From Myxococcales bacterium (GTDB lineage: Bacteria > Myxococcota_A > Polyangia > DRWM01 > JAAZOP01), in contig JAAZOP010000212.1 in the NCBI GenBank assembly GCA_012797735.1, positions 1 to 36,107 of the forward strand: a DNA stretch of 36,107 nucleotides. The letters are read 5' to 3'. Positions 7,368 through 26,393 of the stretch are shown here, in pieces. A program made the translations under genes and the position numbers. Position 1 is the stretch's first letter; the number at the start of each line of letters is the position of its first letter. The notes beneath the pieces are model-generated. The model saw only the letters and a program-made list of their open reading frames with translations. It did no database searches and was not told where the DNA came from.

Positions 7368-7375
<8 letters not shown>
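5888..7375 (+). CDS. Membrane PAS sensor histidine kinase
   Basis: 495 residues. Four hydrophobic segments (about 11-29, 37-54, 55-75, 85-103) with very short loops form a membrane anchor with no sizeable external domain, so the signal is probably sensed in the membrane or by the PAS domain at about 118-235 ([11 protein letters not shown] ... IHPDDHAAV ... [11 protein letters not shown]). HisKA follows with phospho-acceptor His269 in [12 protein letters not shown], then HATPase motifs [17 protein letters not shown] and [11 protein letters not shown]. The C-terminal architecture is that of DctB/NtrB-like kinases that partner sigma54 activators. The gene overlaps the NtrC-type regulator by eight bases, so the two are an obvious cognate pair. 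The ATG at 5888 lacks a clear Shine-Dalgarno; an in-frame TTG at 5849 has GGGAGG upstream and would add 13 residues. The input signal is unknown. Confidence 0.93.
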
Positions 7376-8768
<1,393 letters not shown>

Positions 8769-9089: not shown

Positions 9090-9452
9090 ATGGTCGCGAA
9101 GTCGCTGAGCGAGGTTGCCGAGGCGTTGGGCGCGCGGGTCGTCACCCGCGGGTCCGGCCTGGCGGTGGAGATCGACCGGGTCTACGCCGGCGACCGCATC
9201 AGCGACCTGCTCGAGCGTTCCTCGCCGCGCACGCTGGTGGTGACGAACCTCGCGAGTCGACCGTTGTTGCGGCTGGCGGACCTGATGGATGTGCCGGCGA
9301 TCTGTTTCGTGGACGGAAAGGAGCCCGAAGCGGAGGTGATCGCGGCGGCGCAGGCGCGCGGCACGGTGTTGCTCGTCTCGCCCGTCGGGGTCTCCGAGAC
9401 CTGCGGGCGGCTGTCTCGGCTGTTGGGGGAGGGGGAAGGCGGCCGGTCGTGA
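9090..9452 (+). CDS. DRTGG-domain protein, first copy
   Basis: A 120-residue soluble protein that is essentially one DRTGG-like domain: the GDRISDLLERS opening, the hydrophobic strand TLVVTNLASRPLLRLADL, then VPAICFVDGKEPEAEVIAAAQARGTVLLVS. DRTGG domains are found between CBS and DHH or phosphotransacetylase domains and are thought to bind a small ligand. Stand-alone copies occur, as I recall, beside NAD-linked [FeFe]-hydrogenases, where their job is not established. The ATG at 9090 follows a GGAGCCGGTGGAGG stretch. It is the first gene after the sigma54 promoter, and its stop overlaps the GTG of the next gene (GTGA), implying coupled translation. A second, diverged copy lies at 11011. Confidence 0.8.
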   Translation: MVAKSLSEVAEALGARVVTRGSGLAVEIDRVYAGDRISDLLERSSPRTLVVTNLASRPLLRLADLMDVPAICFVDGKEPEAEVIAAAQARGTVLLVSPVGVSETCGRLSRLLGEGEGGRS

Positions 9453-11014
9453 CCGTTGCGGAGTGGCCGTTGGTCGGCGGCGTCTACGACGACGTGGGGC
9501 GTGCCACCCGCGCTTTGAAAGAGCATCTCAAGCGGCTGGGGGTCGACGTCGGGGCGATTCGTCGTGCGTTGATTGCCGCGTATGAGGCCGAGGCCAACGT
9601 GGTGATCCACGCGCGGCGCGGGACGATGCGCTGCTACTTCGGGCCGGGGCAGCTCGACGTCGAGGTGGAGGACGAGGGTCCCGGGATTCCGGACATCGAT
9701 CTGGCGTTGCGCGAGGGCTTCTCGACGGCTCCGCTTGCCGCCCGGGAGCTGGGGTTCGGGGCGGGGATGGGGTTGCCGAGCATCCGGCGCAACAGCGATC
9801 GGTTCTCGCTGCAGTCCACGGTGGGGCGTGGCACTCGGGTCGCGTTCAGCGTGCGCTATCGGCCCCAGGAGGGCGGCGTCGTCGTCGGACATTCGGTCGC
9901 GGTCGAGGCGGCGCGCTGCCAGCGCTGTCGCCGCTGCGTGCGCGCCTGTCCCGTGCAGGCCGTCCGGTTGCGCGATTCCGGCCCTTCGATCCTCGAGCAC
10001 CTGTGCATCGACTGTGCGGCCTGTCTGGCCGTCTGTCCGACGGGGGCGCTGGGCTTGCGGGGGCGGTCGGACGCTCCGGCCGTGGACGGCGGGACGCTCG
10101 TCGTTCCCGATGCGCTGCTGGTGCAGTTCGGCGCTGCGGTCCGACCCGCCGACGCGCTCGCCGCGCTGGAACGGCTCGGCCACCGTGACGTCCGCACGCT
10201 CGAGCCGTGGGAGCGTGGCCTGCGGGCCGCCGCCGCGGAGCGGGCGCGCGCGAACAGTGGACCCCGACCCGTGATCGCGCCGTTCTGCCCGGCGGTGTTG
10301 AACCTGGTCGCATCGCGGTTTCCCGGCCTGCTCGCGCAGGTGGCGCCCTTCCTCACCCCGCTCGAAGCCGCGCGTCGCGCGCTCCAGACGCGGCCCGCGG
10401 CGTTCGTCACGCTCTGCCCCGCGCAGCGATCGTCCCTGACTTCGACCACCGGCCCGGGGGCCGCCGAGCTGGTCGCGCCGACCAGCCTGCTGCGGGAGAT
10501 GCTGGGGGTGTTGGTCGGACGGCCGCGTCCGACGGTGGACGAGGCCGCATCGCCGGTCGCGGCGCCGACCACCGCCCCCGCGGTGCTTGTCGCGACCGGC
10601 CTGCGCCACGTCCTGCGCGTTCTCGACGAGGCGGAGAACGGGGCGCTCGGCGACGTGCTGCTGCTCGAACTCTGGGCCTGCGACGGCGGATGCTTCGGTT
10701 CGCCGCTGCTGCGGGAGGATCCGGCCATCGCCGGACACCGGGCGCGCACCTGGTCGGTCGGCGACGGGCCGGTCGCGCCCGCCGAGCCGCTGGCAGTGGA
10801 ACGACAGGTTCGTCGCGGCGTGCGTCTGGACCCGGATCTCTCCCGCGCCGTCCAGTTGCTCGGAGAGATCGACCGGCTGGCGCGGGCGCTGCCCGGCCGT
10901 GACTGCGCCGACTGTGGGGCACCGACCTGCCAGGCGCTGGCGGAAGACGTTGTGCTCGGGCGCGCGATGCTCGCCGCATGCCCGCACCGTCCCGTCGAGG
11001 AGGAATTGCGATGA
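9449..11014 (+). CDS. RsbW-like kinase fused to ferredoxin and degenerate [FeFe]-hydrogenase domain
   Basis: 521 residues with four modules. (1) About 1-140: an anti-sigma/RsbW-type HATPase with N-box EAEANVVIHA (Asn50), DEGPGI at 75-80 and GFGAGMGLP at 102-110. (2) Two [4Fe-4S] ferredoxin motifs, Cys157/160/163/167 and Cys186/189/192/196. (3) About 215-430: a domain with the layout of the hydrogenase H-cluster domain but altered motifs: FCPAV (Cys280) for L1, LCPAQ (Cys323) for L2, ACDGGCFG (Cys411/415) for L3. The four cysteines that would hold the cubane are kept; the extra L1 Cys, the L2 Lys and the GGGQP tail are lost. (4) A CxxCxxxxC iron-sulfur motif (Cys486/489/494, probably Cys511). 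I infer an iron-sulfur redox sensor controlling a Ser/Thr-type kinase, without hydrogenase activity. It overlaps both neighbours by four bases. No sigma factor or STAS partner is in the window. Confidence 0.85.
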   Translation: MTVAEWPLVGGVYDDVGRATRALKEHLKRLGVDVGAIRRALIAAYEAEANVVIHARRGTMRCYFGPGQLDVEVEDEGPGIPDIDLALREGFSTAPLAARELGFGAGMGLPSIRRNSDRFSLQSTVGRGTRVAFSVRYRPQEGGVVVGHSVAVEAARCQRCRRCVRACPVQAVRLRDSGPSILEHLCIDCAACLAVCPTGALGLRGRSDAPAVDGGTLVVPDALLVQFGAAVRPADALAALERLGHRDVRTLEPWERGLRAAAAERARANSGPRPVIAPFCPAVLNLVASRFPGLLAQVAPFLTPLEAARRALQTRPAAFVTLCPAQRSSLTSTTGPGAAELVAPTSLLREMLGVLVGRPRPTVDEAASPVAAPTTAPAVLVATGLRHVLRVLDEAENGALGDVLLLELWACDGGCFGSPLLREDPAIAGHRARTWSVGDGPVAPAEPLAVERQVRRGVRLDPDLSRAVQLLGEIDRLARALPGRDCADCGAPTCQALAEDVVLGRAMLAACPHRPVEEELR

Positions 11015-12664: not shown

Positions 12665-13192
12665 ATGGAGAGCGGATGCTGCAGCTGCGAGAAGGGCCGG
12701 GAGCCGACGGAACAGGAGCTCCTCGCCCGGTTGGACGAGGTGCTCGACGACTATGCGGGCAAGGCCGGGGCCCTGATCCCCGTGCTGCAAATCGCCCAGG
12801 GGCTGTTCGGCTACCTCCCCGAGACGGCGCTCAAGCGCATCGCCGAGCGACTCGGCAAGTCGTACAGCGAGGTGGCGGGCGTCGTGGGGTTCTACTCGTT
12901 CTTCACCACCGTGCCGCGCGGCCGGCACCTGATCCGCGTCTGCCTCGGCACGGCCTGCTACGTCCGCGGCGGCAAGCAGGTGCTCGACACGTTCAAGAGC
13001 GAACTCAAGATCGATGTCGGCGAGACCACCCCGGACCGGCTGTTCACGCTCGAGGTCGCGCGCTGCTTCGGCGCCTGCGGCCTCGCTCCGGCGATCATGA
13101 TCGATGAGGACGTGCACCACCGCGTGAAGCCGGTGAAGGTGCGCGAACTCCTCGCACCGTATCGGGCGGATGCCAAGGCCGAAGTGGCCTAG
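12665..13192 (+). CDS. hndA: NAD(P)-linked [FeFe]-hydrogenase subunit HndA/HydC (NuoE-like)
   Basis: A 175-residue thioredoxin-like [2Fe-2S] protein homologous to the 24-kDa subunit NuoE of complex I. It has the N-terminal helical region with IPVLQIAQGLFGYLPE and VAGVVGFYSFFTTVPRG, and the four cluster cysteines in CLGTACYVRGG and EVARCFGACGLAP. In HydABC/HndABCD enzymes this subunit contacts the flavoprotein and takes part in electron transfer between NAD(P)H, ferredoxin and H2. An additional CCSC stretch at residues 5-8 is not typical of NuoE. GGAGGAG precedes the ATG. It begins the structural part of the island in the order hndA-hndB-hndC-hndD. Confidence 0.95.
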   Translation: MESGCCSCEKGREPTEQELLARLDEVLDDYAGKAGALIPVLQIAQGLFGYLPETALKRIAERLGKSYSEVAGVVGFYSFFTTVPRGRHLIRVCLGTACYVRGGKQVLDTFKSELKIDVGETTPDRLFTLEVARCFGACGLAPAIMIDEDVHHRVKPVKVRELLAPYRADAKAEVA

Positions 13193-13202
13193 GGAGGCGA
13201 CA

Positions 13203-13574
13203 ATGGGCGACAAGATCCAGAGCGTGGCCGAGTTGAAGGCGCTGGCCGCCAAGGCGCGCGAGGAACTCGAGATCCGCGGCGCTCCGAAGGCGACCGTGAT
13301 CAATGTCCACATGGGCACCTGCGGCATCGCCGCCGGCGCCCGAGACGTGCTGGCCTGCCTGGCGGCGGAACTGGAGGCGGCGGGCGTCCGGGATGTGACC
13401 CTGCGCCAGTCCGGCTGTGCGGGCCTCTGCAGTCAGGAACCGATGCTGACGTTGACCGACAAGAACGGAACGCAGTTCCGCTACGGCAAGCTCGACAGCG
13501 CGCGCGTGCGCGAGATCGTCCGCGAGCACGTGGTCGGCGGCACCGCGGTCGCCAATTACCTGATCCGCCTGTAG
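13203..13574 (+). CDS. hndB: HndB-type [2Fe-2S] thioredoxin-like ferredoxin subunit
   Basis: A 123-residue thioredoxin-like [2Fe-2S] ferredoxin. Cluster ligands lie in HMGTCGIAAGA and SGCAGLCSQEP. Size, fold and position between the NuoE-like and NuoF-like genes match HndB of the Desulfovibrio NADP-reducing hydrogenase. In three-subunit HydABC enzymes this domain is present only as part of the flavoprotein subunit; here both the separate HndB and an N-terminal copy in HndC exist. AGGGAGG precedes the ATG at 13203. Confidence 0.92.
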   Translation: MGDKIQSVAELKALAAKAREELEIRGAPKATVINVHMGTCGIAAGARDVLACLAAELEAAGVRDVTLRQSGCAGLCSQEPMLTLTDKNGTQFRYGKLDSARVREIVREHVVGGTAVANYLIRL

Positions 13575-13593: not shown

Positions 13594-16500
13594 ATGGACA
13601 AGGTACGAAGCCACTTCCTCGTCTGCGCCGGCGGCGGCTGCGTCGCCTCCGGTGCGCTGGAGTTCGCTGCCGCCCTTCGCAGCGCCATCGACAAGCAAGG
13701 GCTGGCGGAGGAGATCAAGGTCGTCGAGACGGGCTGCCTCGGCCCCTGCGCGGCCGGACCCGTCGCCGTGGTCTATCCCGACGGCACGTTCTACCAGAAG
13801 CTGAAGGCCGCCGACGCCGCCGAGATCGTCGAGCAGCATCTGCTCAAGGGACGACCCGTCGAACGGCTGCTCTACAAGAAGCCCGCCGGCGACGAGGCCG
13901 TCCCGGCGCTGGGCAAGCTCTCGTTCTTCAAGGACCAGGTGAAGATCGTCCTGCGGAACTGCGGCCTGATCGACCCCACGCGCATCGAGGAGTACCTGGC
14001 GCGGGACGGCTACCTGGCCCTGGCCAAGGCGTTGACCGAGATGACGCCCGAGCAGGTGATCGAGGAGGTCAAGAAGTCCGGCATCCGGGGACGCGGCGGA
14101 GCCGGCTTCCCCACCGGCCTGAAGTGGGCGTTCGCCCGCAAGGCCCAGGGACCCAGGAAGTACGTGCTGTGCAACGCGGACGAGGGCGATCCCGGCGCCT
14201 TCATGGACCGCAGCGTCCTGGAGGGCGACCCGCACAGCGTGATCGAGGCGATGGCGATTGCCGCCTACGCCGTAGGCGCGGCCCAGGGGTTCGTCTACGT
14301 CCGTGCCGAATACCCGCTGGCGGTCAAGCGGCTGGGCATCGCGATCGATCAGGCCCGCCAGCGCGGCCTGCTCGGCGCGAAGATCCTCGGCACAGACTTC
14401 TCCTTCGACCTGGAGATCCGCATGGGCTCCGGCGCCTTCGTCTGCGGCGAGGAGACCGCGCTGATGACTTCCATCGAGGGCAACCGGGGCGAACCCCGTC
14501 CACGACCTCCATTTCCGGCCGTCAAGGGCCTGTGGGGCATGCCCTCCTTGCTGAACAACGTCGAGACGTACGCCGCGATCCCGATGATCATCCTCAAGGG
14601 CGGCGACTGGTACGCCTCCTACGGCACCGAGAAGAGCAAGGGTACCAAGGTCTTCGCCCTCGCCGGCGCGGTGAACAACACCGGCCTGGTCGAGGTGCCG
14701 ATCGGCATGTCGCTGGGCGAGATCGTCTACGACGTGGGCGGCGGGATCCCGGGCGGCAAGAAGTTCAAGGCCGCCCAGGTCGGCGGCCCCTCCGGCGGGT
14801 GCATCCCCCGCGAGCACCTGAACGTCCCGATGGACTACGAGACCCTGCAGGAACTCGGCGCGATCATGGGCTCGGGCGGGCTGATCGTCATGGACGAGGA
14901 CGCCTGCATGGTCGATGTCGCCCGCTTCTTCCTCGAGTTCGTCCAGGACGAATCGTGCGGCAAGTGCGTCCCCTGCCGGATCGGCACGAAGCGGATGCTG
15001 GAGATCCTCGAGCGCATCTGCCGCGGCGAGGGCGTCGAGGGGGACGTCGAGCGTCTGGTCGCGCTCGGCAACCGGATCAAGGACACCGCGCTATGCGGCC
15101 TCGGTCAGAGCGCCCCCAACCCCGTGCTGTCCACGATCCGGCACTTCCGTCACGAGTACGACGCGCACATCCGCGCCAAGCGCTGCGTCGCGGGCGTCTG
15201 TCCCGAACTCGTCCGCGCTCCCTGCCAGAACGCCTGCCCGGCCGGCGTCGATGTCCCGGGCTACGTGTCGCTGACCGGCGAGAAGCGCTATGCGGAGGCG
15301 CTGCGGTTGCACCGCGAGCGCAACCCGCTGACGGCCGTCTGCGCCCGCGTCTGCTTCCACACCTGCGAGGACAAGTGCCGCCGCTCCACCCTCGACGCCC
15401 CGGTCTCGATTCGCGGAGTCAAGCGCTACCTCGCCGACCAGGAGGTGACCGTCCAGCTGCCCGAGGTGCGCGACAACCCGGAGAACGCGGCACGGAAGAT
15501 CGCCGTCATCGGGGCGGGTCCGGCCGGCCTTTCCTGCGCCTACTTCCTGGCCCGTCTCGGATACCGGCCGACGGTCTTCGAGGCCGAGCCGAAGCCCGGC
15601 GGGATGCTGGTCCAGGCGATTCCGGCCTACCGACTGCCCCGCGAGATCGTCGAACGCGAGGTGCGGATGATCGAGCGGCTGGGGGTGGACATCCAGACGG
15701 GCCAGCGGCTGGGGCGCGACTTCACCCTGCCCGGCCTCCGCCAGCAGGGCTACGAGGCGGTGTTCCTCGGCGTCGGCGCCCCGAAGGGGGCGCGCCTCGG
15801 CATCCCCGGCGAGCAGGCCGAGGGGGTGGCCGAGGCGTTGACGTTCCTCAAGCGCTACAACCTCGGCGGCGCGGGCCGCGTCGGCGGGCGGGTGGTCGTG
15901 ATCGGCGGCGGCAACGCCGCGATCGATGCCGCCCGCACCGCCCTGCGCCTCGGTGCCGACACCGTCACCGTGCTCTACCGCCGCACCCGCGGGGAGATGC
16001 CGGCCTACGGCGAGGAGATCGAGGAGGCCGAGCGTGAGGGTGTCACGATCCGCGAGCTGGTGGCCCCCGAGGAGATCCTCGTGCGCGACGGCAAGGTCGC
16101 CGGCGTGCGGAGCCGCAAGATGGTCCTGGGCCCCTACGACCGCAGCGGCCGGCGACGCCCGCAACCCGCCGAGGAGGCGCCCTTCGTCGTCGAGGCCGAT
16201 CAGGTCATTGCCGCCATCGGCCAGGTGCTCGAGCCGTCGGAGTTCGTGGACGGCCTGGGCCTGAAGCTGACCCGTCAGGGCTACGTCGAGGCCGACCCGC
16301 TCACCGGTGCGACCTCGATTCCGTGGCTGTTCGCCGGCGGCGACGCCGCCGTCGGACCGTCCTCGGTGGCCGAGGCGGTGGGGGCGGGCGAGCGGGCGGC
16401 GGTCGGCATCGATCGATTCCTGACCGGGGAAATGCATGCCTTCTGGCGCGCCGAGGCGCCCGCCGCGGTGCCCTTCGATCCGAACGCGGATCCCGCGCCG

Positions 16501-16641
16501 TTCCCGCGTGCGCCGATGCGCATGCTTCCCGTGGAGCGGCGCAAGGGGACATTCCAGGAGGTCGAGCTGACGTTCACGGAGGGTGCGGCATTGCAGGAGG
16601 CGAGGCGTTGCCTGCGCTGCGACTACCGCGAATGCAAGTGA
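13594..16641 (+). CDS. hndC: HndC/HydB flavoprotein (NuoF-like) fused to a GltD/NfnB-like NADPH oxidoreductase
   Basis: 1015 residues, about 400 longer than ordinary HndC. Domains: thioredoxin-like [2Fe-2S] (1-90, CAGGGC ... CLGPC); NuoF core with FMN/NAD(P)H motifs GRGGAGFPTGLKW and CNADEGDPGAFMDR; [4Fe-4S] ligands CGKCVPC from Cys455 plus Cys501 in TALCGLG. HndC normally continues into a 2[4Fe-4S] ferredoxin tail. Here, right after KRCVAGVCPE, the chain enters a GltD-type module: CQNACPAGVDVPGYV from Cys544, CARVCFHTCEDKC, FAD motif IAVIGAGPAGLSCAY near 636, NADPH motif VVVIGGGNAAIDAA near 767, and AIGQVLEP with the terminal FAD motif FAGGDAAVGPSSV. The second flavin site may add an NADPH route, as in NfnAB-type bifurcation. 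GGGAGGC precedes the ATG. The C-terminal CLRCDYREC could be a further metal site. Confidence 0.95.
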   Translation: MDKVRSHFLVCAGGGCVASGALEFAAALRSAIDKQGLAEEIKVVETGCLGPCAAGPVAVVYPDGTFYQKLKAADAAEIVEQHLLKGRPVERLLYKKPAGDEAVPALGKLSFFKDQVKIVLRNCGLIDPTRIEEYLARDGYLALAKALTEMTPEQVIEEVKKSGIRGRGGAGFPTGLKWAFARKAQGPRKYVLCNADEGDPGAFMDRSVLEGDPHSVIEAMAIAAYAVGAAQGFVYVRAEYPLAVKRLGIAIDQARQRGLLGAKILGTDFSFDLEIRMGSGAFVCGEETALMTSIEGNRGEPRPRPPFPAVKGLWGMPSLLNNVETYAAIPMIILKGGDWYASYGTEKSKGTKVFALAGAVNNTGLVEVPIGMSLGEIVYDVGGGIPGGKKFKAAQVGGPSGGCIPREHLNVPMDYETLQELGAIMGSGGLIVMDEDACMVDVARFFLEFVQDESCGKCVPCRIGTKRMLEILERICRGEGVEGDVERLVALGNRIKDTALCGLGQSAPNPVLSTIRHFRHEYDAHIRAKRCVAGVCPELVRAPCQNACPAGVDVPGYVSLTGEKRYAEALRLHRERNPLTAVCARVCFHTCEDKCRRSTLDAPVSIRGVKRYLADQEVTVQLPEVRDNPENAARKIAVIGAGPAGLSCAYFLARLGYRPTVFEAEPKPGGMLVQAIPAYRLPREIVEREVRMIERLGVDIQTGQRLGRDFTLPGLRQQGYEAVFLGVGAPKGARLGIPGEQAEGVAEALTFLKRYNLGGAGRVGGRVVVIGGGNAAIDAARTALRLGADTVTVLYRRTRGEMPAYGEEIEEAEREGVTIRELVAPEEILVRDGKVAGVRSRKMVLGPYDRSGRRRPQPAEEAPFVVEADQVIAAIGQVLEPSEFVDGLGLKLTRQGYVEADPLTGATSIPWLFAGGDAAVGPSSVAEAVGAGERAAVGIDRFLTGEMHAFWRAEAPAAVPFDPNADPAPFPRAPMRMLPVERRKGTFQEVELTFTEGAALQEARRCLRCDYRECK

Positions 16642-16659: not shown

Positions 16660-18432
16660 ATGGCGAAGCTCACGATTGACGGAATCCCGATCGAGGTCCC
16701 CGATGGAACCACCGTGCTCGAGGCCGCCCGGCGGGCCGGTCGCCGCATCCCGACCCTCTGCTACCTCGAGAACGTCCAGGCGATCGGCGCCTGCCGGGTC
16801 TGCACCGTCGAGGTCGAGGGGGCCCGCACGTTGGTCGCCTCCTGCGTCACGCCGGTGGCCGACGGCATGAAGGTGAGGACGAATACCCGTCGCGTCCGAG
16901 AGGCGCGCCAACTGGTGGTCGACCTGCTGCTCTCGGATCATGCCGGCGACTGCCAGACCTGCGTGCGGGGGGACGACTGCGAACTGCAGGCGTTGGCCCG
17001 CGAGCTGGGTGTGCGCCAGGTGACCTACGCCGGAGAGAAGAGCCGCAAGTACCTGGACCAGTCGACGCCGGCCCTGGTGCGCGACAGTTCGAAGTGCGTG
17101 CTGTGCCGGCGTTGCATCACCGTCTGCAACGAGGTCCAGGGCGTCGCCGCGCTGTGGCCGCAGTTTCGCGGTTTCAAGTGCGTGATGGCGCCGGCCTTCG
17201 GGCATGACCTGGAGGAGGTGGTCTGCGTCCAGTGCGGCCAGTGCGGCGCGGTCTGTCCCGTCGGGGCGATCGTCGAGCGCGATCAGATCGACGAGGTCTG
17301 GGCCGCGCTCGACGACCCCCGGAAGCACGTGGTCGTCCAGACCGCCCCCGCGATCCGCGCGGCGCTCGGGGAGTGTTTCGACATGCCCCCGGGCACGCTC
17401 GTCACCGGCAAGATGACGGCTGCGCTGCGCCGTCTCGGCTTCGACGCCGTCTTCGACACCAACTTCACCGCCGACATGACGATCATGGAGGAGGGCACCG
17501 AGCTGCTCACCCGCCTCAAGCGGGCGCTCGTTGATCGGCAGTCCGTGGCGCTCCCGATGTTCACCAGTTGCTCCCCCGGCTGGATCAAGTTCATGGAGCA
17601 CTACTACCCCGACATGGTCGATAACCTCTCGACCTGCAAGTCGCCCCAGCAGATGTTCGGCGCGCTGGCCAAGACCTACTACGCGCAGAAGATCGGCAAG
17701 CGTCCGGAGGACCTGTTCGTCGTGTCGGTCATGCCCTGCACGGCCAAGAAGTACGAGGCGCAGCGCCCGGAGATGAACGGCAGCGGCGTGCGCGATGTCG
17801 ACGTCGTGCTGACGACGCGCGAACTGGGGCGGATGATCCGGCAGGCCGGCATCGACTTCGCGGCGCTGCCCGACGAGGAGATGGACGCGCCGCTCGGGCT
17901 GTCGTCCGGCGCCGCCGACATCTTCGCCAACACCGGCGGCGTGATGGAAGCTGCGCTGCGGACGGCCTGGGAACTCGTCACCGGGCGTCCGTTGCCTTTC
18001 GACAAGCTGCACGTCCAGCCGGTCATGGGCCTCGAGGGGGTCAAGGAGGCCGGCATCACCGTCACCGGCGCGAAACCCGAGTGGTCGTTCCTGGAAGGGG
18101 TCGAGATGAAGGTCGCCGTGGCCCACGGCCTCGGCAACGCCCGCCGGATCATCGAGCGTGTCCGGGCCGGCGAGGCGAGCTACCACTTCATCGAGGTGAT
18201 GACCTGCCCGGGCGGCTGCATCGGAGGCGGCGGCCAACCCCGGTTCACCACCGACGAGGTCCGCCGGGCCCGCATCGCCGCGATCTACAAGGAGGACGAG
18301 GGGAAGAAGCTGCGCAAGTCCCACGAGAACCCGCAGGTCGCGCAGCTCTACGCCGAGTTCCTCGGCGCCCCGCTGGGCGAGAAGTCGCATCACCTGCTCC
18401 ACACGCACTACGAACGCCGGAGCCGCGTCTAG
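16660..18432 (+). CDS. hndD: [FeFe]-hydrogenase catalytic subunit HndD/HydA
   Basis: 590 residues; reversibly interconverts protons and H2 at the H-cluster. The N-terminal [2Fe-2S] domain has CYLENVQAIGACRVC and a later Cys. Next comes the His-Cys [4Fe-4S] motif HAGDCQTCVRGDDC, then 2[4Fe-4S] motifs CVLCRRCITVC and CVQCGQCGAVC. The H-cluster domain carries L1 TSCSPGW (Cys304, Ser305), L2 MPCTAKKYE (Cys360) and L3 EVMTCPGGCIGGGGQP (Cys516, Cys520). The C-terminal small-subunit-like helix region (KLRKSHENPQVAQLY ... HHLLHTHY) is fused, as in HndD. L1 has Ser where many hydrogenases have a second Cys; I recall this form in NAD(P)-linked enzymes, so activity is still expected. Loss of a separate membrane or Tat signal places it in the cytoplasm. 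The genes for its three maturases lie downstream in the same direction. Confidence 0.97.
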   Translation: MAKLTIDGIPIEVPDGTTVLEAARRAGRRIPTLCYLENVQAIGACRVCTVEVEGARTLVASCVTPVADGMKVRTNTRRVREARQLVVDLLLSDHAGDCQTCVRGDDCELQALARELGVRQVTYAGEKSRKYLDQSTPALVRDSSKCVLCRRCITVCNEVQGVAALWPQFRGFKCVMAPAFGHDLEEVVCVQCGQCGAVCPVGAIVERDQIDEVWAALDDPRKHVVVQTAPAIRAALGECFDMPPGTLVTGKMTAALRRLGFDAVFDTNFTADMTIMEEGTELLTRLKRALVDRQSVALPMFTSCSPGWIKFMEHYYPDMVDNLSTCKSPQQMFGALAKTYYAQKIGKRPEDLFVVSVMPCTAKKYEAQRPEMNGSGVRDVDVVLTTRELGRMIRQAGIDFAALPDEEMDAPLGLSSGAADIFANTGGVMEAALRTAWELVTGRPLPFDKLHVQPVMGLEGVKEAGITVTGAKPEWSFLEGVEMKVAVAHGLGNARRIIERVRAGEASYHFIEVMTCPGGCIGGGGQPRFTTDEVRRARIAAIYKEDEGKKLRKSHENPQVAQLYAEFLGAPLGEKSHHLLHTHYERRSRV

Positions 18433-18445
18433 GAAGGACGTTCGG

Positions 18446-20506
18446 ATGACTGCGTGCATCGACCCGGACGACGCGCCCCTGCCCCTCGGCCAGAACGTCG
18501 TCGCCACGATTCCCGAGCGGTGCCGGCGTTGCTACACCTGCGTGCGCGAGTGCCCGGCCAAGGCGATCCGAGTCGAGAACGGGCAGGCCACCGTGCTCCA
18601 GGAGCGCTGCATCGCTTGCGGCAACTGCGTCCGCGTCTGCGCCCAGCAAGCCAAGCGGATCGTCGATTGCGTGCCGCGGGTCGAACGCATGCTCGCCGAT
18701 CGAGAGACGCCGACGTTCGCCTGCCTCGCGCCGTCGTTCCCGGCCGCGTTTCATCCGACACGGCCCGGAAAGCTGGTCGCCGCGATCCGCGCGTTGGGCT
18801 TCGCCGAGGTCTGGGAGGTCGCGCTCGGCGCCGAACTGGTCGGTCGGGCCTACTCCCGGTTGGCCGAGAGGTCCGCGGCGAGCGCCACGCAACTCATCTC
18901 GTCGGCCTGCCCCGCCCTGGTCTCGTTCGTCCAGAAGCACATGCCGTCGCTGCTCGGCACGCTGGCTCCCATCGTCTCTCCGATGATTGCCACCGCGCGC
19001 GCGATCCGCAAGCGCCGGGGGGCCGGCGTCCGCGTGGTCTTCATCGGCCCCTGCATCGCCAAGAAGAACGAATTCCGCGACCCGCTGGTCAACGGCGAGG
19101 TCGACGCCGTACTGACCTTCGAGGAGCTGCGACGGATGCTGTTCCGCGCCGGGATCGTGCCGGAACACATGACGGAGACGTTCTTCGACAGTCCGCGCTG
19201 CGACCTCGGCCGGTCCTTTCCGCTGTCCGGCGGTCTGCTCAAGACCGCCGGACTGCGGGCGGACATCCTCGAGAACGACATCGTCGTCACCGAGGGCAAG
19301 GACCGCGTTCTCGGCGCCCTCGAAGCGGTGGCCAACGGCTCCAGCGACGCGCGGCTGTTCGACATCCTGTTCTGCGAAGGATGCATCAACGGCCCCCTCA
19401 TGCCCCAGGGGCTGAGTCCGTTCATGCGCAAGGAGGTGGTCGCCGCCTTCGTCACCGAACTCGGGCGCCGCACGACCCAGCGGGAGGTGGTGGAGGCGAT
19501 CGCCGAGTTCGACGACCTGGATCTGAGTCGGACCTTCCAGAGTCAGGTGGTGGTGCTGCCGCAGCCCTCGGAGGTGCAGATCGCCGCGGCGCTGCGGCGG
19601 ATGAAGAAGGGGACTCCCGAGGACCGCCTGGACTGCGGGGCCTGCGGCTACCCCACCTGCCGGGAGAAGGCGATCGCGGTCTGCCAGGGCCTGGCGGAAC
19701 CCGAGATGTGCCTGCCGTACCTCGTCGACGAGTTGCAGGCCGTGATCCACCAGTTGCGGGTGTCCCACGACGAACTGGCCTCCGCCCAGCAGCGCCTCGT
19801 CCACTCCGAGAAGCTGGCCTCGATGGGACAGCTCTCCGCCGGCGTCGCCCACGAGATCAACAACCCGCTCGGCGTCGTCCTGCTCTACTCCCACATCCTG
19901 GCCAAGCAGCTCCCGGAGGGCGATCCCCGGCGCTCGGACATCGATGTGATCGTGCGGGAGGCGACGCGGTGCCGCAACATCGTCCGCGGCCTGCTCGACT
20001 TCGCCCGCCAGTCCCGCGTGCAGAAGACTCCCACCGACACCGCACAGCTGTTCCAGGAGGTGGCCGGGATCCTGCAGCCGCGGCTGGAAGGCCGACCGGT
20101 CCGGTTCGTGATGGAAGTCGAGCCGGGTCTGCCGGTGATGCTGGTCGATGCCACGCAGATCAAGCAGATGCTGGTCAACTTGCTGGAGAACGGCCTCGAC
20201 GCCATCCAGGGCGCGGGCGAGTTGCGGCTGTGCGCCCGCTGTATCCAGGACGGCAGGACGCTGGAAATCAAAGTCACGGACAGCGGCTGCGGCATCCCCG
20301 CGGAAAACCTGCCCAAGCTCTTCACCCCGTTCTTCACGACGAAGGAGGCGGGCAAGGGCACCGGTCTTGGTCTCGCGATCGCCTACGGGGTGGTCAAAAT
20401 GCACTGCGGGGACATCACCGCGGACAGCGAGGTGGGGCGCGGCACGACGTTCCGGATCACCCTGCCGATCGAGCAGCCGGTGACCGAAGCCGTCGCGGCG
20501 CCCTGA
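18446..20506 (+). CDS. Hydrogenase-derived sensor histidine kinase (group D-like H-domain + HK)
   Basis: 686 residues. Two [4Fe-4S] motifs (Cys26/29/32/36 and Cys55/58/61/65) are followed by an H-cluster-type domain: L1 SSACPALV (Cys155), L2 GPCIAKKNE (Cys203, with the Lys and Glu kept), L3 FCEGCINGP (Cys310, Cys313). L3 has CxxC rather than the CxxxC of catalytic hydrogenases, and L1 lacks the proton-relay Cys. Then comes a CxxC...C iron-sulfur motif ([10 protein letters not shown] from 397), a coiled linker, HisKA with His469 ([15 protein letters not shown]) and HATPase ([27 protein letters not shown]). This is the architecture of putative sensory [FeFe]-hydrogenases. It should report H2 or redox state to a receiver, most simply the one at 20532. 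No membrane segment, so cytoplasmic. AGGAAGGA precedes the ATG. Confidence 0.93.
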
Positions 20507-20531: not shown

Positions 20532-20954
20532 ATGGACGGTCAACCCCGAACGGTTCTGGTCGTGGACGACGACCCGGACTTCCTCTTCCTCCTCCGCGAA
20601 CTGCTCGAGGGTCACGGCTTCCGCACCGTCGTCTTCGAGAGCCGTGCGGCCGCTACCGCGTGGTTGGCCGACCATCGTCCCGACCTGGTGGTTTCCGACC
20701 TGATGATGGACGCACTCGACGCTGGTTTCTCCTTCGCCCGCTGGGTCAAGGAGCAACCTTCGCTGGCCGGCGTCCCGGTGCTGATTGTGACCGCCGTGGG
20801 CAGCGCGCTCGGTCTGGACTTCGCGCCCCGCACCCCGGCCGAGCTGGAGGCGCTGCACGCCGACGGCTACCTGGAGAAGCCGGTGTCCCCCACCGCGCTG
20901 CTGGAGCGGATCCACGCCCTGCTGGGGACCGCCGGCGAGGAGCGACTGTCATGA
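20532..20954 (+). CDS. Single-domain response regulator, DMM-type, first copy
   Basis: 140 residues, a receiver with no output domain. Acidic pocket VVDDDPD near the N-terminus, phospho-acceptor Asp56 in SDLMMDALDAG, conserved Thr in IVTAVG and Lys in YLEKPVSP. The segment after the Asp (MMDALDAGF) is unlike the common MPxMDG form and matches the second copy at 26474. Between the Thr and the Lys it is somewhat longer than a standard receiver (LDFAPRTPAELEALHADG). Being next to the hydrogenase-like kinase gene, it is its likely target. It may pass the phosphate on, bind a partner, or drain the kinase. Its stop overlaps the next ATG (ATGA). Confidence 0.9.
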   Translation: MDGQPRTVLVVDDDPDFLFLLRELLEGHGFRTVVFESRAAATAWLADHRPDLVVSDLMMDALDAGFSFARWVKEQPSLAGVPVLIVTAVGSALGLDFAPRTPAELEALHADGYLEKPVSPTALLERIHALLGTAGEERLS

Positions 20955-22426
20955 GCGACGCACCCGTGCGAATCCTCGTGGCCGACGACGAACCCGGGAT
21001 GCGGGAGGGCTGTCGCAAGATCCTGGTCGCCGAGGGCTATGCCGTCGAGACCGCGGCCGACGGCGTCGAAGCGCTCGAGGTCTTCGAGCGGCACGGTGAC
21101 ATCAGCGTCGTGCTGGTCGACCTCAAGATGCCGCGCCTGGGCGGAATGGAGCTGATCGAGGCGGTCCGCCAGCGGGATCCGGACGTCGTGCTGCTCGTGA
21201 TCACCGCCTACGCCGCGATCAACACGGCGGTGGAGGCGACCAAGCGCGGTGCCTTCGGCTACATCCCCAAGCCGTTCCTGCCGGACGAACTGCTGTTGCG
21301 CGTGCGCAACGGCCTCGAGATGCGCGCCCTGACGATCGAGGCCCGACGTCTGCGCGAGGAGCGCGAACGCCGGCTGCTCGAAGTCGCCGCCGAACGCACG
21401 CAGAGCCGCACGATCATCGATTGCATGACCGACGGCGTCCTCGTCGTCAACCGCGACCGGCAGATCGTTCTGCGGAACGCCGCGGCCCGACGCCTGATGC
21501 CCGAGATCGCCGGCATCCCCTTGCCGGCCGAACTCGAGACGATCGAGTCCGCCGAGGTGCGGGCGATCATCGATGAGACGCTCGCCGCCCGCACCGAGCC
21601 GCAGATCGCCATCCGCGAGATTCCCCTCGGGTCCGGCACCTACATGGTCAACGCCAGCCCCGTGCTGGGCTCCTCGGGCGAGTCGTACGGCGCCGTCGCC
21701 GTGCTGCGGGACATCACCGCGTTGACCAAGCTCGCCGCGGCGAAGTCGATGTTCGTGTCGATGGTCGCGCACGAGGTCAAGAGCCCGCTGGCCGCCATCG
21801 AATCGTACCTCAACCTCCTGCTCTCCGGCACCGGTGGCCACGACCCGGAACGCGATCGCCGGATGCTCGAGCGCTGCATGGTGCGCGCCAAGACCCTGCG
21901 CACGATGGTCTCCGAACTGATCTCGCTCGTCGCCGTGGAAACCGGAAAGTTCTCGCTCAAACGCTCCCCGCTCGATGTCGGTGCCGTCGTCGCCGAGGTG
22001 GTCGATGCCTACAAGGACCGGGCCGCGGAGAAGAACATCCAACTGACGCTCGCGACGCTCGGCTCCGCCCAGACCAAGGTGCTGGCCGATCGGGAGGCGA
22101 TCCGGTCGGTGTTCAACAACCTCGTCGACAACGCGTTGAAGTACACGCCCGCCGGCGGGCAGGTGCGGGTCGCCGTCTCGCTGGAGCAACTCAGCGTCTG
22201 CGTCTCGGTCCGGGATACGGGCATCGGCATGAGCCCGGAGGAGCGGAGCCGGGTGTTCGACGACTTCTACCGCGCCAAGAACGAGTTCACCGCGAATGTC
22301 CCCGGCACCGGCCTCGGGCTGTCGTTGGTCAAGAAGTTCGTCGAACTGCATCAGGGTACGGTGACCGTCCAGAGCGAGCCGGGGCAAGGCAGCGAGTTTA
22401 CCGTCCGCCTGCCGGTGGGCGAGTGA
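20951..22426 (+). CDS. Hybrid REC-PAS-histidine kinase
   Basis: 491 residues: an N-terminal receiver with Asp57 (VDLKMPRLGGMEL, Lys in IPKPF), a coiled linker, a PAS domain at about 155-265 (IIDCMTDGVLVVNRDRQIVLRNAAARRL ... VLRDITALT), HisKA with His274 (SMVAHEVKSPLAAIESY) and HATPase (NLVDNALKYTPAGGQ, DTGIGM, GTGLGLSLVKK). No membrane segment. A receiver in front of a kinase suggests it is itself controlled by phosphorylation from another kinase, here probably the hydrogenase-derived one. It would then act on another receiver such as the one at 26474. Start chosen at 20951 because it overlaps the previous stop. The output target is not identified by sequence. Confidence 0.93.
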   Translation: MSDAPVRILVADDEPGMREGCRKILVAEGYAVETAADGVEALEVFERHGDISVVLVDLKMPRLGGMELIEAVRQRDPDVVLLVITAYAAINTAVEATKRGAFGYIPKPFLPDELLLRVRNGLEMRALTIEARRLREERERRLLEVAAERTQSRTIIDCMTDGVLVVNRDRQIVLRNAAARRLMPEIAGIPLPAELETIESAEVRAIIDETLAARTEPQIAIREIPLGSGTYMVNASPVLGSSGESYGAVAVLRDITALTKLAAAKSMFVSMVAHEVKSPLAAIESYLNLLLSGTGGHDPERDRRMLERCMVRAKTLRTMVSELISLVAVETGKFSLKRSPLDVGAVVAEVVDAYKDRAAEKNIQLTLATLGSAQTKVLADREAIRSVFNNLVDNALKYTPAGGQVRVAVSLEQLSVCVSVRDTGIGMSPEERSRVFDDFYRAKNEFTANVPGTGLGLSLVKKFVELHQGTVTVQSEPGQGSEFTVRLPVGE

Positions 22427-22454: not shown

Positions 22455-23564
22455 ATGGGACCCGGGACGGCAGACGACGGAACCACCGGCGACGGGGCGC
22501 TCGGACGACCCGAGCTGCTCGCCGCGTTGCGCGAGGAGGACCCCGAGCGCCAGGAAGCCTTGCGACGCCGGGCGGAAGCCGTTCGGACCGCCTGCGTCGG
22601 CGAAGCCGTTCATCTACGGGCGTTGATCGAAGTCTCCAACCACTGCATCCGCCGTTGCACCTACTGCGGGCTCCGCGCGCCCAACCGGCGCCTGGCGCGC
22701 TACCGCCTGTCGATGAACGAGGTGCTCGACGCGGCGCGGTCGGCGGCAAGCCTGGGTCTCGGTACGGTGGTCATCCAGGCCGGCGAGGACCCCGCCCTGA
22801 CCGAGAGATGGGTCGCCGAACTGGTGCGCCGGCTGAAGGGGGAAACCGGCCTGGCGGTGACGCTGAGCCTCGGCGCGCGGACGCCGGCGGAGTTGCGGGC
22901 CTGGCGGCGGGCGGGCGCCGATCGATACCTGCTGCGGTTCGAGACGTCGAATCGCGCCCTGTTCCGGCACGTGCATCCCGACGCTCCGGGCTGGGGTGCG
23001 GACCGTCTTGACCTGCTGCGCGTCCTGCGGGACCTGGACTACGAAGTCGGTTCCGGCGTGATCGTCGGGCTTCCCGGGCAGACCTGGAACGATCTCGTCA
23101 CCGACCTCGAGACGTTTCGCCGCCTCGACCTCGACATGATCGGCGTCGGCCCGTACCTCGCGCACCCCGACACCCCTCTCGGCCGAAGCGCCGGGTGCGC
23201 GCCGCCCGGCACGGGGCAGGTGCCGCCCAGCGAGACCGTGACCGGTCGCGTCGTGGCGCTGACCCGCCTGCTGTGTCCGCGGTCGAACATCCCCGCCACC
23301 ACCGCCGTCGAGACGTTGGCGCCGGGTCGGGGTTACGAATGCGCGCTGTCCTTCGGCGCCAACGTCCTGATGCCCTGCTTCACTCCCGCGACCCAGGCCG
23401 CCCGGTATGAAACCTACCCGGGCCACAACGAACGCCTCGTCTCTTCGGCCCAGGCCGTCGCGGACGCCCGGCGTCGCATCGCCGCGCTCGGCCGTGTCGT
23501 GGGCACCGGGGACGGGATGTCCCCGAACGTCGTCCGGCGGCGCGCAGTCGGAGGTGCGGCATGA
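22455..23564 (+). CDS. hydE: [FeFe]-hydrogenase H-cluster maturase HydE (radical SAM)
   Basis: 369 residues. The radical SAM motif CIRRCTYC begins at Cys64 and is followed by GLRAPN, typical of HydE. Other family features are VIQAGEDP, the SLGARTPAELRAWRRAGADRYLLRFETS region, GVIVGLPGQTW, GVGPYLAHPDTPL and NIPATTAVETL. HydE works with HydG and HydF on the diiron subcluster of the H-cluster, acting on the HydG product on the way to the azadithiolate bridge. The optional C-terminal auxiliary cluster is not evident. The ATG at 22455 comes 29 bases after the hybrid kinase stop, with a weak Shine-Dalgarno (AAAGGCGAG). It is the first of the three maturase genes in the order E-F-G. Confidence 0.95.
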   Translation: MGPGTADDGTTGDGALGRPELLAALREEDPERQEALRRRAEAVRTACVGEAVHLRALIEVSNHCIRRCTYCGLRAPNRRLARYRLSMNEVLDAARSAASLGLGTVVIQAGEDPALTERWVAELVRRLKGETGLAVTLSLGARTPAELRAWRRAGADRYLLRFETSNRALFRHVHPDAPGWGADRLDLLRVLRDLDYEVGSGVIVGLPGQTWNDLVTDLETFRRLDLDMIGVGPYLAHPDTPLGRSAGCAPPGTGQVPPSETVTGRVVALTRLLCPRSNIPATTAVETLAPGRGYECALSFGANVLMPCFTPATQAARYETYPGHNERLVSSAQAVADARRRIAALGRVVGTGDGMSPNVVRRRAVGGAA

Positions 23565-23706: not shown

Positions 23707-24969
23707 ATGAACCGGACACCGAAAGGCATGCGCTGGCAGATCGGCTTCTTCGGCCGCCGCAACGTCGGCAAGTCTTCGTTGTTGAACGCCTTGACGCGGC
23801 AGCGGGTGTCGATCGTCTCCGATGTCGCCGGCACCACGACGGACCCGGTGGAGAAGCCGATGGAACTGCTCCCGATCGGCCCCGTGCTGCTGATCGACAC
23901 CGCCGGGATCGATGACGTGGGCGCGCTCGGCGCGCAACGCGTCGAGCGCACGAGGCGGATCTTCGATCGTGTCGACCTTGGCATCGTGGTGGCGGCCGGA
24001 TCGGAGTGGGGCGAATACGAGGATCAAATCCTCTCGGAACTGGTGTCGCGCGGGACGCCGGCCATCGTCGTGTTCAACAAGTCCGACCTGGGTGAGCCCC
24101 GCAGGGCCGTCCTCGAAAAGCTGGCCGGCCTCGGCGTGCCCCACATTCGGACCGTGGCCTCCCGGGACGAAGGCCTGCTCGATCTGCGCGAGGCGTTGAT
24201 TCGCGCGGCGCCCGACGAGTTGATCAACGCTCCGGCCATCGTCGGCGACCTCGTGCCGCCGGGCGAATTGGCGCTGCTGGTCGTGCCGATCGACCTCGAG
24301 GCGCCCAAGGGCCGCCTGATCCTCCCGCAGGTGCAGGCCATCCGGGACCTGCTGGATCACGAGGCGGGGTGTCTCGTCGTCAAGGAGAGCGGCCTGCGTG
24401 ATGCGCTGGCTCGTCTGCGCCGGCCGCCGGCCCTGGTCGTCACGGACTCCCAGGCGTTCCGCAAGGTCGCCGCCGAGACGCCGCAGGAGGTGCCGCTGAC
24501 GTCCTTCTCCATCCTCTTCGCCCGGTTCAAGGGGGACCTGTCGGACCTGGTCCTCGGAACGATCGGCATCGAACGACTGCGCCCGGGGGACAAGGTCCTG
24601 GTGGCGGAGGCGTGCACGCACCATCCGATCGGCGACGACATCGGGCGGGTGAAGATCCCGGGCTGGTTGAACGGGCGCGTCGGCGGTGCGCTGGAGTTCG
24701 TTCACGTGCAGGGTCACGACTTCCCGGAGGATCTCGCCCCGTATCGCCTGGTGGTGCACTGCGGAGCATGCGTCGCCAACCGCCGCGAGGTGTTGTCCCG
24801 TCTCGTCCGGTGCCGGCGAGCGGGCGTGCCGATGACCAACTACGGCCTCGCCATCGCCTGGTCGCTCGGGATCTTCGAGCGGGCGTTGGCCCCGTTCCCC
24901 TCGGCGGTCCGGGTGTTTCGTCAGGCCAGGGGGGACGCGGCCGATGGCGCGCAGGAGGCGCGAACATGA
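23707..24969 (+). CDS. hydF: H-cluster maturation GTPase and scaffold HydF
   Basis: 420 residues. The Era/TrmE-type GTPase domain comes first with P-loop GRRNVGKSS at 16-24, G2 Thr in VAGTTTDPV, G3 DTAGID and G4 NKSD. It continues into the dimerisation and cluster-binding domains. Iron-sulfur ligands are the HydF signature Cys303-x-His305 (CTHHPIGDD) and His351-Cys352-x-x-Cys355 (HCGACVANRRE). HydF carries the diiron precursor made by HydG/HydE and loads it into HydA. I chose ATG 23707, which has GGGGAGGGG upstream; longer in-frame starts lie inside hydE and give no HydF-like sequence. The 142 bases between hydE and hydF hold no other gene. The stop overlaps the hydG ATG. Confidence 0.96.
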   Translation: MNRTPKGMRWQIGFFGRRNVGKSSLLNALTRQRVSIVSDVAGTTTDPVEKPMELLPIGPVLLIDTAGIDDVGALGAQRVERTRRIFDRVDLGIVVAAGSEWGEYEDQILSELVSRGTPAIVVFNKSDLGEPRRAVLEKLAGLGVPHIRTVASRDEGLLDLREALIRAAPDELINAPAIVGDLVPPGELALLVVPIDLEAPKGRLILPQVQAIRDLLDHEAGCLVVKESGLRDALARLRRPPALVVTDSQAFRKVAAETPQEVPLTSFSILFARFKGDLSDLVLGTIGIERLRPGDKVLVAEACTHHPIGDDIGRVKIPGWLNGRVGGALEFVHVQGHDFPEDLAPYRLVVHCGACVANRREVLSRLVRCRRAGVPMTNYGLAIAWSLGIFERALAPFPSAVRVFRQARGDAADGAQEART

Positions 24970-26393
24970 GCGATGCACAAGCCGGTCCCCCGGAGCGTTC
25001 GGCCAGTCCGGATGCGGATATCGTCAACGAGGCGGAGATCTGGCGCGTTCTCGAAGGGGCGCGAGGGCACGACGCGGCGCGCGTTCGAGAAGTGTTGGCG
25101 CGCGCCCGCGAACTTCGAGGACTCGAGGCTCCCGACGTGGCCGTGTTGGCCGGCGTGTCCGACCCCGAGTTGATCCACGAGATGTTCGTCGCGGCGCGCG
25201 AGGTCAAGGAGCGCATCTACGGCCGTCGTCTCGTGCTGTTCGCGCCGTTGTACATCTCCAACCTGTGCAGCAACGAGTGTCTCTACTGCGCGTTCCGCGC
25301 CCGGAACGTCGCCGTCCGGCGACGCGCCTTGAACCAGGATGAGATTGCGCGCGAGACCCGACTGCTCGTCGAGCAGGGTCACAAGCGGATCCTGCTCGTC
25401 GCCGGCGAAGCCTATCCGTCCGAAGGCTTCGCCTATGTGCGCAAGGCGATCGACACGGTCTACTCCGTTCGGAGCGGGCGAGGCGAAATTCGCCGGGTCA
25501 ACGTCAACGTCGCCCCCCTCACTGTGGAAGAGTTCCGGGAGCTCAAGGCCGCCGGCATCGGCACCTTCCAGCTGTTCCAGGAAACCTACCACCACGGCAC
25601 CTACGCCCGCGTGCATGTGGGCGGCAAGAAGCGCGACTACGACTGGCGCTTGGGCGCGATGGATCGCGCGATACAGGCCGGGATCGACGACGTCGGCATC
25701 GGCGTGTTGTTCGGTCTCTTCGATTGGCGCTTCGAACTGCTCGCCCTGCTGCAGCACGTCCGGCATCTCGAGCGGCGTTTCGGCGTCGGTCCCCACACGG
25801 TCAGTGTGCCGCGCCTGGAGCCTGCCGTCGGGTCGGACATGGCGGCCCATCCGCCGCAACCCGTGTCGGACGTGGAGTTCCGGCGAATCGTCGCGATCCT
25901 GCGCCTGGCCGTGCCCTACACCGGCATCATCCTGTCGACCCGCGAGAACCCCAACCTTCGCCGCGAGACCTTCGCCCTCGGCGTGTCGCAGATCTCCGGC
26001 GGTTCGAGGACCAACCCGGGTGGCTATGCGCAGGGCGAAGAAGACGAGGAAGCCCAGTTCTCCGTCGGCGATCACCGATCGCTCGACGACGTGGTTCGGG
26101 ACGTCGCGGCGCTCGGCTACATCCCGTCCTTCTGCACCGCCTGCTATCGCCTCGGTCGCACCGGCCAGGAATTCATGGAACTGGCCAAGCCGGGCGAGAT
26201 CAAGCGGCACTGCGACCCGAATGCGATCGTCACCTTCCAGGAGTACCTGCTGGACTACGCCTCGCCCGCCACGCGCGAGGTGGGCCGACGCACGATCGAA
26301 CAGGCTCTCAACGAATTGCCCGAACCGCTGCGGAGCGCGACCCGCCGGATGGTGGAGCGGGTCGAACAAGGCGAGCGGGACGTGTTCTGTTGA
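24966..26393 (+). CDS. hydG: H-cluster maturase HydG (tyrosine lyase, radical SAM)
   Basis: 475 residues. HydG cleaves tyrosine to give CO and CN- for the H-cluster diiron site. The radical SAM motif CSNECLYC starts at Cys101 followed by AFRARN. The ThiH-like core is clear (FQETYHHGTYARVH, DVGIGVLFGLFDWRFE, SVPRLEPAVGS, STRENPNLRR, GVSQISGGSRTNPGGY). The second cluster that builds the Fe(CO)2(CN) synthon is bound by a C-terminal motif CTACYRLGRTG with Cys390/Cys393 and, 22 residues later, Cys416 in KRHC, exactly the HydG spacing. The gene overlaps hydF by four bases (ATGA). All three maturases are complete, so the HndD enzyme can in principle be activated from this island alone. Confidence 0.97.
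   Translation: MSDAQAGPPERSASPDADIVNEAEIWRVLEGARGHDAARVREVLARARELRGLEAPDVAVLAGVSDPELIHEMFVAAREVKERIYGRRLVLFAPLYISNLCSNECLYCAFRARNVAVRRRALNQDEIARETRLLVEQGHKRILLVAGEAYPSEGFAYVRKAIDTVYSVRSGRGEIRRVNVNVAPLTVEEFRELKAAGIGTFQLFQETYHHGTYARVHVGGKKRDYDWRLGAMDRAIQAGIDDVGIGVLFGLFDWRFELLALLQHVRHLERRFGVGPHTVSVPRLEPAVGSDMAAHPPQPVSDVEFRRIVAILRLAVPYTGIILSTRENPNLRRETFALGVSQISGGSRTNPGGYAQGEEDEEAQFSVGDHRSLDDVVRDVAALGYIPSFCTACYRLGRTGQEFMELAKPGEIKRHCDPNAIVTFQEYLLDYASPATREVGRRTIEQALNELPEPLRSATRRMVERVEQGERDVFC

Follow-up and report, generated by a model that had tools for sequence, protein, structure and literature searches.

HydS-HK, encoded at 18446..20506 on the + strand of the window (the whole stretch of 36,107 nucleotides that was analysed), is probably an H-cluster-bearing sensor kinase of the sensory group C of [FeFe]-hydrogenases, responsive to H2 or to H2-linked redox; on the sequence-based evidence below, we give this reading a probability of roughly 0.68. 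Its L3 loop has the form CxGC, with two rather than three residues between the cysteines, which raises the question of how an H-cluster is held in such a site. H2 sensing by group C enzymes is still called putative in the papers used here, and the CxGC family makes this assumption testable.

Domains, motifs and fold of HydS-HK

The open reading frame is intact: it has an ATG start, encodes 686 amino acids and spans exactly 18446-20506 (+). The stop codon of hydA, at 18432, lies 13 nt upstream, and the gene ends 25 nt before a receiver gene. Two N-terminal [4Fe-4S] motifs (C26 to C65, 18521..18640; Fer4_10 at residues 23-65) precede the H-domain (PF02906, Fe_hyd_lg_C, residues 90-317, 18713..19396, 1.2e-44). 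Pfam also finds an FeS domain (residues 395-424), a HisKA domain (460-522, 3.2e-13) and a HATPase_c domain (568-676, 6.4e-27), while no PAS family appears in the protein at an E value of 0.001. The kinase core (19823..20473) has the H-box histidine and the N and G boxes of a HisKA-type histidine kinase (HEINNP at 469, N-box at 576, DSGCGI at 612, GTGLGL at 638).

In the H-domain, L1 reads SSACPAL (18899..18919), with C155 kept and Ala154 at the position of the proton-relay cysteine, and L2 reads GPCIAKKNE (19046..19072; C203, K206, E209). L3 (19367..19396) reads FCEGC (C310, C313) and, aligned by MAFFT with the CPGGC of the window's own HydA, shows a one-residue gap between the cysteines. The C-terminal cluster motif (C397, C400, C405, C422; 19634..19711) has the pattern Cx2Cx4Cx16C, which is the one given for group C and D sensors by Land et al. 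(PMC8163306). HydS-HK was rejected as a group A catalytic [FeFe]-hydrogenase: the set TSCxP/MPCxxK/CPGGC with relay cysteine is not found in it, and it scores 97.6 bits with TIGR02512, below the cut-off of 405.95. On the other hand, it shows the traits of the histidine kinase-linked group C proteins: PF02906, a fused kinase, N- and C-terminal cluster motifs and the loss of the relay cysteine, which is usual in L1 of sensory group C.

The AF2 model of residues 1-458 has a mean pLDDT of 90.1. Compared by VIA, it resembles CbA5H (8zqd, Z 42.1, rmsd 2.5 over 360 residues) and CpI (4xdc, Z 38.2, rmsd 2.7 over 351), and the best Foldseek and VIA matches among those listed are [FeFe]-hydrogenases. 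In the secondary structure of the model, a predicted helix (residues 423-457, 19712..19816) connects the last cluster cysteine with the HisKA domain.

The initial annotation had described a sensory hydrogenase fused to a kinase acting through His469, placed directly after the catalytic subunit gene, with the lysine and glutamate of L2 kept and L3 one residue shorter than CPGGC. The motifs and the gene order agree with this description, and the fusion is further supported by the domains, the fold, the tree placement and the conserved hydA neighbourhood. Its mention of a single cysteine in L1 is correct, since C155 is the only one, but nothing unusual, as the neighbouring HydA has a single one too, at the other position.

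Conservation was examined in 81 rows, made of the window protein and the best 80 of at least 561 relatives. Some of the ligand and relay roles of the CpI-numbered positions are those that we presume from structure papers. C155, C203, K206, E209, C310, G312 and C313 are invariant (81/81), as are the four C-terminal cluster cysteines (81/81), and all eight N-terminal cluster cysteines are kept in 100% of the rows. A95 and P96 occur in 98%, S178 and P179 in all. The proton-relay position is never a cysteine (0/81); it is occupied by Asp (22 rows), Thr (19), Ser (19), Ala (10), Pro (10) or Asn (1). The position of CpI Met353 is a glycine in all 81 rows (Gly201 in HydS-HK) and that of Met497 a leucine in 98% (Leu308). 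The L2 glutamate is missing in L004 and in the same-phylum sequences L268-L270. The lysine and glutamate of L2 may persist without a [2Fe] subsite, as in Nar1/NARFL. Other roles of the CpI-numbered positions are taken from PMC8163306 and PMC10055695.

The gene cluster around the sensor

Upstream of HydS-HK, all on the + strand where a strand is given, lie genes for a NuoE-like HydC subunit (12665..13192, named by reading its translation, and used as a tblastn query), a ferredoxin-like protein (13170-13574), a HydB/NuoF subunit fused to DPD_II and FAD/NAD(P) domains (13594..16641, Pfam) and the catalytic HydA of group A6 (16660..18432; NF040763 897 bits, cut-off 765). Downstream, a stand-alone receiver (Response_reg, 20532..20954, +), whose phosphoacceptor is by inspection probably Asp56, is followed by a REC-PAS-HisKA-HATPase hybrid kinase (20951..22426, +; Pfam), and similar REC(-PAS)-HK genes are found at other loci. 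Then come the maturase genes: a HydE-like one (22455..23564, +), whose TIGR03956 score of 251.7 bits is just under the cut-off of 254.6, HydF (23707..24969, +; TIGR03918 527.6 bits, PF18133 and PF18128) and HydG (24966..26393, +; TIGR03955 531.1 bits at 25014-26384).

The same order is common among the relatives. A hydA gene lies within 1.5 kb upstream on the same strand in 57 of the 72 relatives that have at least 1.8 kb of upstream sequence. Among the 74 that have at least 1.5 kb downstream, 72 show a REC- or HK-like match within 700 nt, and in 53 a REC lies no more than 400 nt away. Ten downstream open reading frames were scanned: seven are REC(-PAS)-HK, one is REC, one is a radical SAM protein and one gave no match. 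These counts indicate that sensor, receiver and REC-HK hybrid often form a trio with a bifurcating hydrogenase.

The genes that immediately follow HydS-HK showed no DNA-binding output. Upstream of the hydrogenase cluster, at about 6090-8768 (+), a PAS histidine kinase and a sigma-54-type response regulator can be recognized by reading; they are a possible DNA-binding output for the operon.

A profile search of the own genome with PF02906 gives exactly two matches, HydA and HydS-HK. A third, degenerate H-domain, at 9449-11014 (+), is outside these matches, and Pfam run on the protein detects it at 7.7e-8. This protein combines HATPase_c_2, Fer4, the degenerate H-domain and FeS; its L2 reads LCPAQRSS for PCxAKxxE and its L3 CDGGC, and the gene adjoins DRTGG-like and PHP-like genes, so named by reading. 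It is similar to the group C1 proteins of PMC11406978 that bear a HATPase and are poor in motifs; according to that paper, the group C1 proteins of Hydrogenedentota hardly show P1-P3.

The L1 of HydA (TSCSPGW, 17563-17583, +) has a cysteine at the relay position and a serine at what we take to be the L1 cubane ligand position of CpI, as in 23 of the 25 group A rows of the panel described below (TSCSP). HydA and HydS-HK thus retain opposite L1 cysteines, each at one of the two positions.

Distribution and descent of the short L3 loop

A scan of a species-genome collection gave at least 561 relatives among at least 590 candidate stretches, and the best 80 were taken. They are titled Hydrogenedentota, Chloroflexota, KSB1, Bacteroidota, Ignavibacteria, Planctomycetota, Calditrichota, Myxococcota and others. 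All 80 have CxGC, a uniformity that is partly due to selection, because the loci are the best matches of a CxGC query. The residues C310, G312 and C313 are also kept in 7/7 orthologues within the class. In the own phylum, PF02906 was found in 15 of 141 sampled genomes; of 12 sensor loci, all ten that are HK-type have CxGC, while the remaining two, which are shorter and lack a kinase motif, read CKGSC.

A panel from the Clostridia phylum, drawn by PF02906 alone and less biased than the best-80 set, comprised 60 non-A places among the matches listed, from which three wrong open reading frames were dropped. It contains 14 CxGC rows, again among the matches listed. The CxxxC spacing is kept in 15 PAS-type rows (15/15, PAS being confirmed by scan in six), in 7 MCP-like, 10 group-D-like (one of them from the window's own class) and 11 group-B-like rows, and in 25 group A rows. 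HydS-HK therefore differs in L3 from every PAS-type row of the panel. In 40 of the 81 rows of relatives a cysteine directly precedes the motif (CCxGC), so that a CxxxC reading is also possible there; this does not apply to HydS-HK, where Phe precedes CxGC.

The 80 relatives and the ten HK-type sensors of the own phylum exclude chance as the source of the short loop. It is a trait of a large bacterial family and not a local oddity. There is no support for treating either this loop or the lone L1 cysteine as special to HydS-HK; both are family traits. Related sensors carry sigma-54 or MCP outputs in place of the kinase.

Trees were built without the L3 columns, with reference rows classed by motif and domain. 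The first left out L010, L219, L035 and L074 as well as 45 of the 80 loci (two of these four included), and the second 19 of 119 rows, of which three were long or odd and sixteen belonged to group A. Group A forms one clade (support 100) and HydS-HK falls outside it, with the sensory enzymes, which is the outcome expected from the initial annotation. Its sister is a sequence from a Hydrogenedentota MAG (support 98), and Chloroflexota sequences come next. The free quick trees do not contain a single CxGC clade, with four changes in the first tree and three in the second. However, when all 50 CxGC rows are constrained to one group, the log-likelihood improves by 27.8 units over the free quick tree (p-AU 0.872). 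A single origin of CxGC is thus favoured, not proven.

Maturases, targets and mode of action

The presence of the maturases gives a clue to the occupancy of the active site. A search for HydF and HydG covered 26 genomes, namely the own one and 25 of 62 sensor-bearing assemblies. Neither is over the cut-off in three MAGs that have the sensor and no group A match (G045, G046, G112), and both are also missing over the cut-off in 7 of 22 genomes that do have a group A match. MAG incompleteness swamps the signal, and a survey of the Clostridia phylum filtered at 95% completeness was used instead, in which 317 of 398 genomes have PF02906. Ten were chosen whose best PF02906 match is weaker than about 1e-59. 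One of them (G071) was discarded as a sensor-only genome, as its two matches are pieces of one group A gene at contig ends.

In two of the ten (G091, a single contig of 2,401,520 bases, and G306), PF02906 matches just one protein, a CxGC one (LFCRGC) that also has a sigma-54 activator domain and an HTH. In both genomes, HydG and HydF are over the cut-off, directly beside the sensor and in the same direction, and HydE is elsewhere in the genome (392 bits, cut-off 254.6). HydE, HydF and HydG have no other visible client there, since the CxGC sensor is the only H-domain, and this makes a full H-cluster likelier than a bare cubane; both examples come from the sigma-54 branch, not from the kinase branch. 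The two genomes are close relatives (78% identity for HydF, 89% for the sensor) and therefore count as one or two independent cases. The seven other chosen genomes, which have neither a CxGC sensor nor a match of group A strength, show no HydG over the cut-off and no HydF domain; L3 is CxxxC in the three of them that are readable, the motifs of L284-L287 being only partly resolved. Genomes in which HydEFG has no visible client but a CxGC sensor offer a clean test case. As a separate observation, two genomes that pass the 95% completeness filter (G351 and G621) have as sole PF02906 match a group-B-like protein with canonical motifs (L278, L279), yet no HydG or HydF match.

In G091 and G306, the sensor gene is followed by the genes of the small and large subunits of a [NiFe]-hydrogenase and hypB, and in G306 by a b-type cytochrome too. 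Among 14 further CxGC sensor contexts, the [NiFe] small subunit comes next in four (G100 twice, G054, G061) and HydA or NuoF occurs in most of the others. Six CxGC sigma-54 sensors in all precede [NiFe]-hydrogenase genes. A GG-N10-GC site (TGGCAy-N5-TTGC-like, -24/-12), with 8-10 of 10 consensus matches, is present in five of the six gaps before the [NiFe] genes, and 0-10 of 1000 shuffled sequences score as high. In the sixth gap, of about 35 nt, there is no -24/-12 site. The five near-consensus sites, at L289, L290, L297, L298 and L299, are predicted sigma-54 promoters between sensor-activator and [NiFe] genes, and a reporter placed there could read out H2 directly. Because the sensors accompany either [FeFe]- or [NiFe]-hydrogenases, H2 is the factor that their neighbours have in common.

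The chances seem slightly better than even that these proteins are a single-origin family of H2 receptors, whose H-cluster site was remodelled by the loss of a residue located between the cysteine that binds only the cubane and the bridging one. In many phyla, the receptor would serve two-component kinases; in Clostridia, it would be coupled to sigma-54 activators that turn on [NiFe]-hydrogenases, where a sensor of the [FeFe] type, equipped with maturases of its own, would command the other class of hydrogenase.

For HydS-HK, we infer a path that leads from cluster occupancy, with H2 as the signal, to a final output through phosphotransfer. The H-domain would bind an H-cluster assembled by HydEFG, whose genes lie just downstream, with C155, C203, C310 and C313 as ligands and CxxC rather than CxxxC in L3; the short loop very probably still carries this cluster. 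The second sphere would be of the sensor type, with Ala154 for the relay cysteine, Gly201 for CpI Met353 and Leu308 for Met497. A change at the cluster may then reach the HisKA dimer by way of the C-terminal [4Fe-4S] domain and the uninterrupted helix 423-457, and would alter, in a direction that the model leaves free, the autophosphorylation of His469. The phosphate would pass to the receiver (20532-20954), to the REC-PAS-HK hybrid (20951-22426) or to both, and the circuit would tune the bifurcating hydrogenase and its maturases.

The initial annotation had proposed a cubane site and perhaps a modified H-cluster. The shorter loop stands, and a bare cubane has become less likely than a full H-cluster of putative geometry. 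If the short L3 could not hold the [2Fe] subsite, HydS-HK would be a sensor of redox or of Fe-S status. Indeed, no PAS-type, group B or group A row of the panel has this spacing, the GGGQP tail and the relay cysteine are lost, and in three MAGs with the sensor neither HydF nor HydG passes the cut-off. This reading is nevertheless unlikely, because G091 and G306 keep HydE, HydF and HydG without any other H-domain, two of them in the gene run of the sensor itself, because no HydG over the cut-off and no HydF domain is found in the seven survey genomes that lack both the sensor and a match of group A strength, and because K206 is invariant. A bound H-cluster could also respond to CO, to O2 or, through the N-terminal clusters, to ferredoxin/NADH redox. 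The two N-terminal cluster motifs and the C-terminal one offer such a redox input and group C and D enzymes show stabilised reduced states (PMC13104023), but what the accompanying [FeFe]- and [NiFe]-hydrogenases share is H2, and we regard a signal of this kind as rather unlikely.

The adjacency to hydA would also suit a catalytic or accessory subunit of HydABC with an incidental kinase. This is very improbable for a protein whose kinase core is complete, whose relay cysteine is absent in 81/81 rows, which is separated from group A by a branch of support 100 and whose relatives bear sigma-54 or MCP outputs instead. There is just as little to recommend a kinase branch that has lost cluster binding and kept the H-domain as a scaffold: the degenerate paralogue at 9449-11014, with LCPAQRSS in L2, gives a precedent in the same cluster, but the ligand cysteines and K206 are invariant in the 81 rows, unlike in that paralogue. 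An H-cluster-bearing sensor kinase is therefore the reading that we prefer, and it can be compared with known systems.

HydDB names group C1 histidine-kinase-linked and gives the roles of all group C members as putative (PMC5037454), although the HK-bearing BfuT proteins are called C3 in PMC11406978. According to the latter, the HydABC (BfuABC) clusters of Hydrogenedentota contain BfuT sensors with PAS or histidine kinase. Like HydS-HK, BfuT has a group C H-domain, belongs to bifurcating-hydrogenase clusters and is also found downstream of bfuA. The T genes are assigned to sub-types IV and V, whereas the HydB of the window is sub-type-I-like: it shares the dihydropyrimidine-dehydrogenase domain II (DPD_II) and FAD/NAD(P) domains with sub-type I BfuB, but is followed downstream by a T-type sensor. 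In the passages of PMC11406978 used here, no mention was found of the L3 spacing of BfuT, of receivers or of sigma-54 relatives.

TmHydS from Thermotoga maritima (group C, PMC10055695), a putative sensor, shares with HydS-HK the replacement of the relay cysteine by Ala, that of Met353 by Gly and the C-terminal cluster. It differs by its PAS domain, the absence of a fused kinase and Ser at Met497 instead of Leu; HydS-HK was not filed as TmHydS-type (M2f) because it has no PAS after the C-terminal cluster. TamHydS from Thermoanaerobacter mathranii (group D, PMC8163306) has the N- and C-terminal cluster motifs, the change of the relay cysteine to Ala and a neighbouring bifurcating hydrogenase in common with HydS-HK. 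On the contrary, it has no signalling domain and Met353 is Ser, and the group-D-like panel rows keep CxxxC. Both characterised proteins bear H-clusters despite the loss of the relay cysteine (PMC10055695, PMC8163306). Fe_hyd_lg_C is listed among the domains of sigma-54 activators of Clostridiales (PMC6615313), in which, as in the CxGC sensors, an H-domain and an FeS domain are the sensory part of a regulator; the passages of that paper used here name neither a [NiFe] target nor an L3 motif for them.

In open-licence PMC papers, no characterised enzyme with a CxxC L3 was found, and no main text on this spacing, on its [NiFe] target or on sole-client maturases. Group C and the kinase fusion are thus already known, while no report was found of the loop spacing or of the maturase and [NiFe] contexts. 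In regulatory [NiFe]-hydrogenases with the HoxJ kinase, H2 sensing drives a histidine kinase and hydrogenase expression. The difference from HydS-HK is that the [NiFe] active site is unrelated and the kinase is a separate protein.

Aspartate at the relay position (C299) is found in 22 CxGC sensors (L064, L070, L081, L083, L087-L089, L094, L096, L099, L100, L102-L112), all titled Bacteroidetes, Bacteroidales, Bacteroidota or Draconibacterium. This is the one substitution that catalytic enzymes are reported to tolerate (PMC10055695), and these 22 of the 81 members are a natural version of that laboratory variant.
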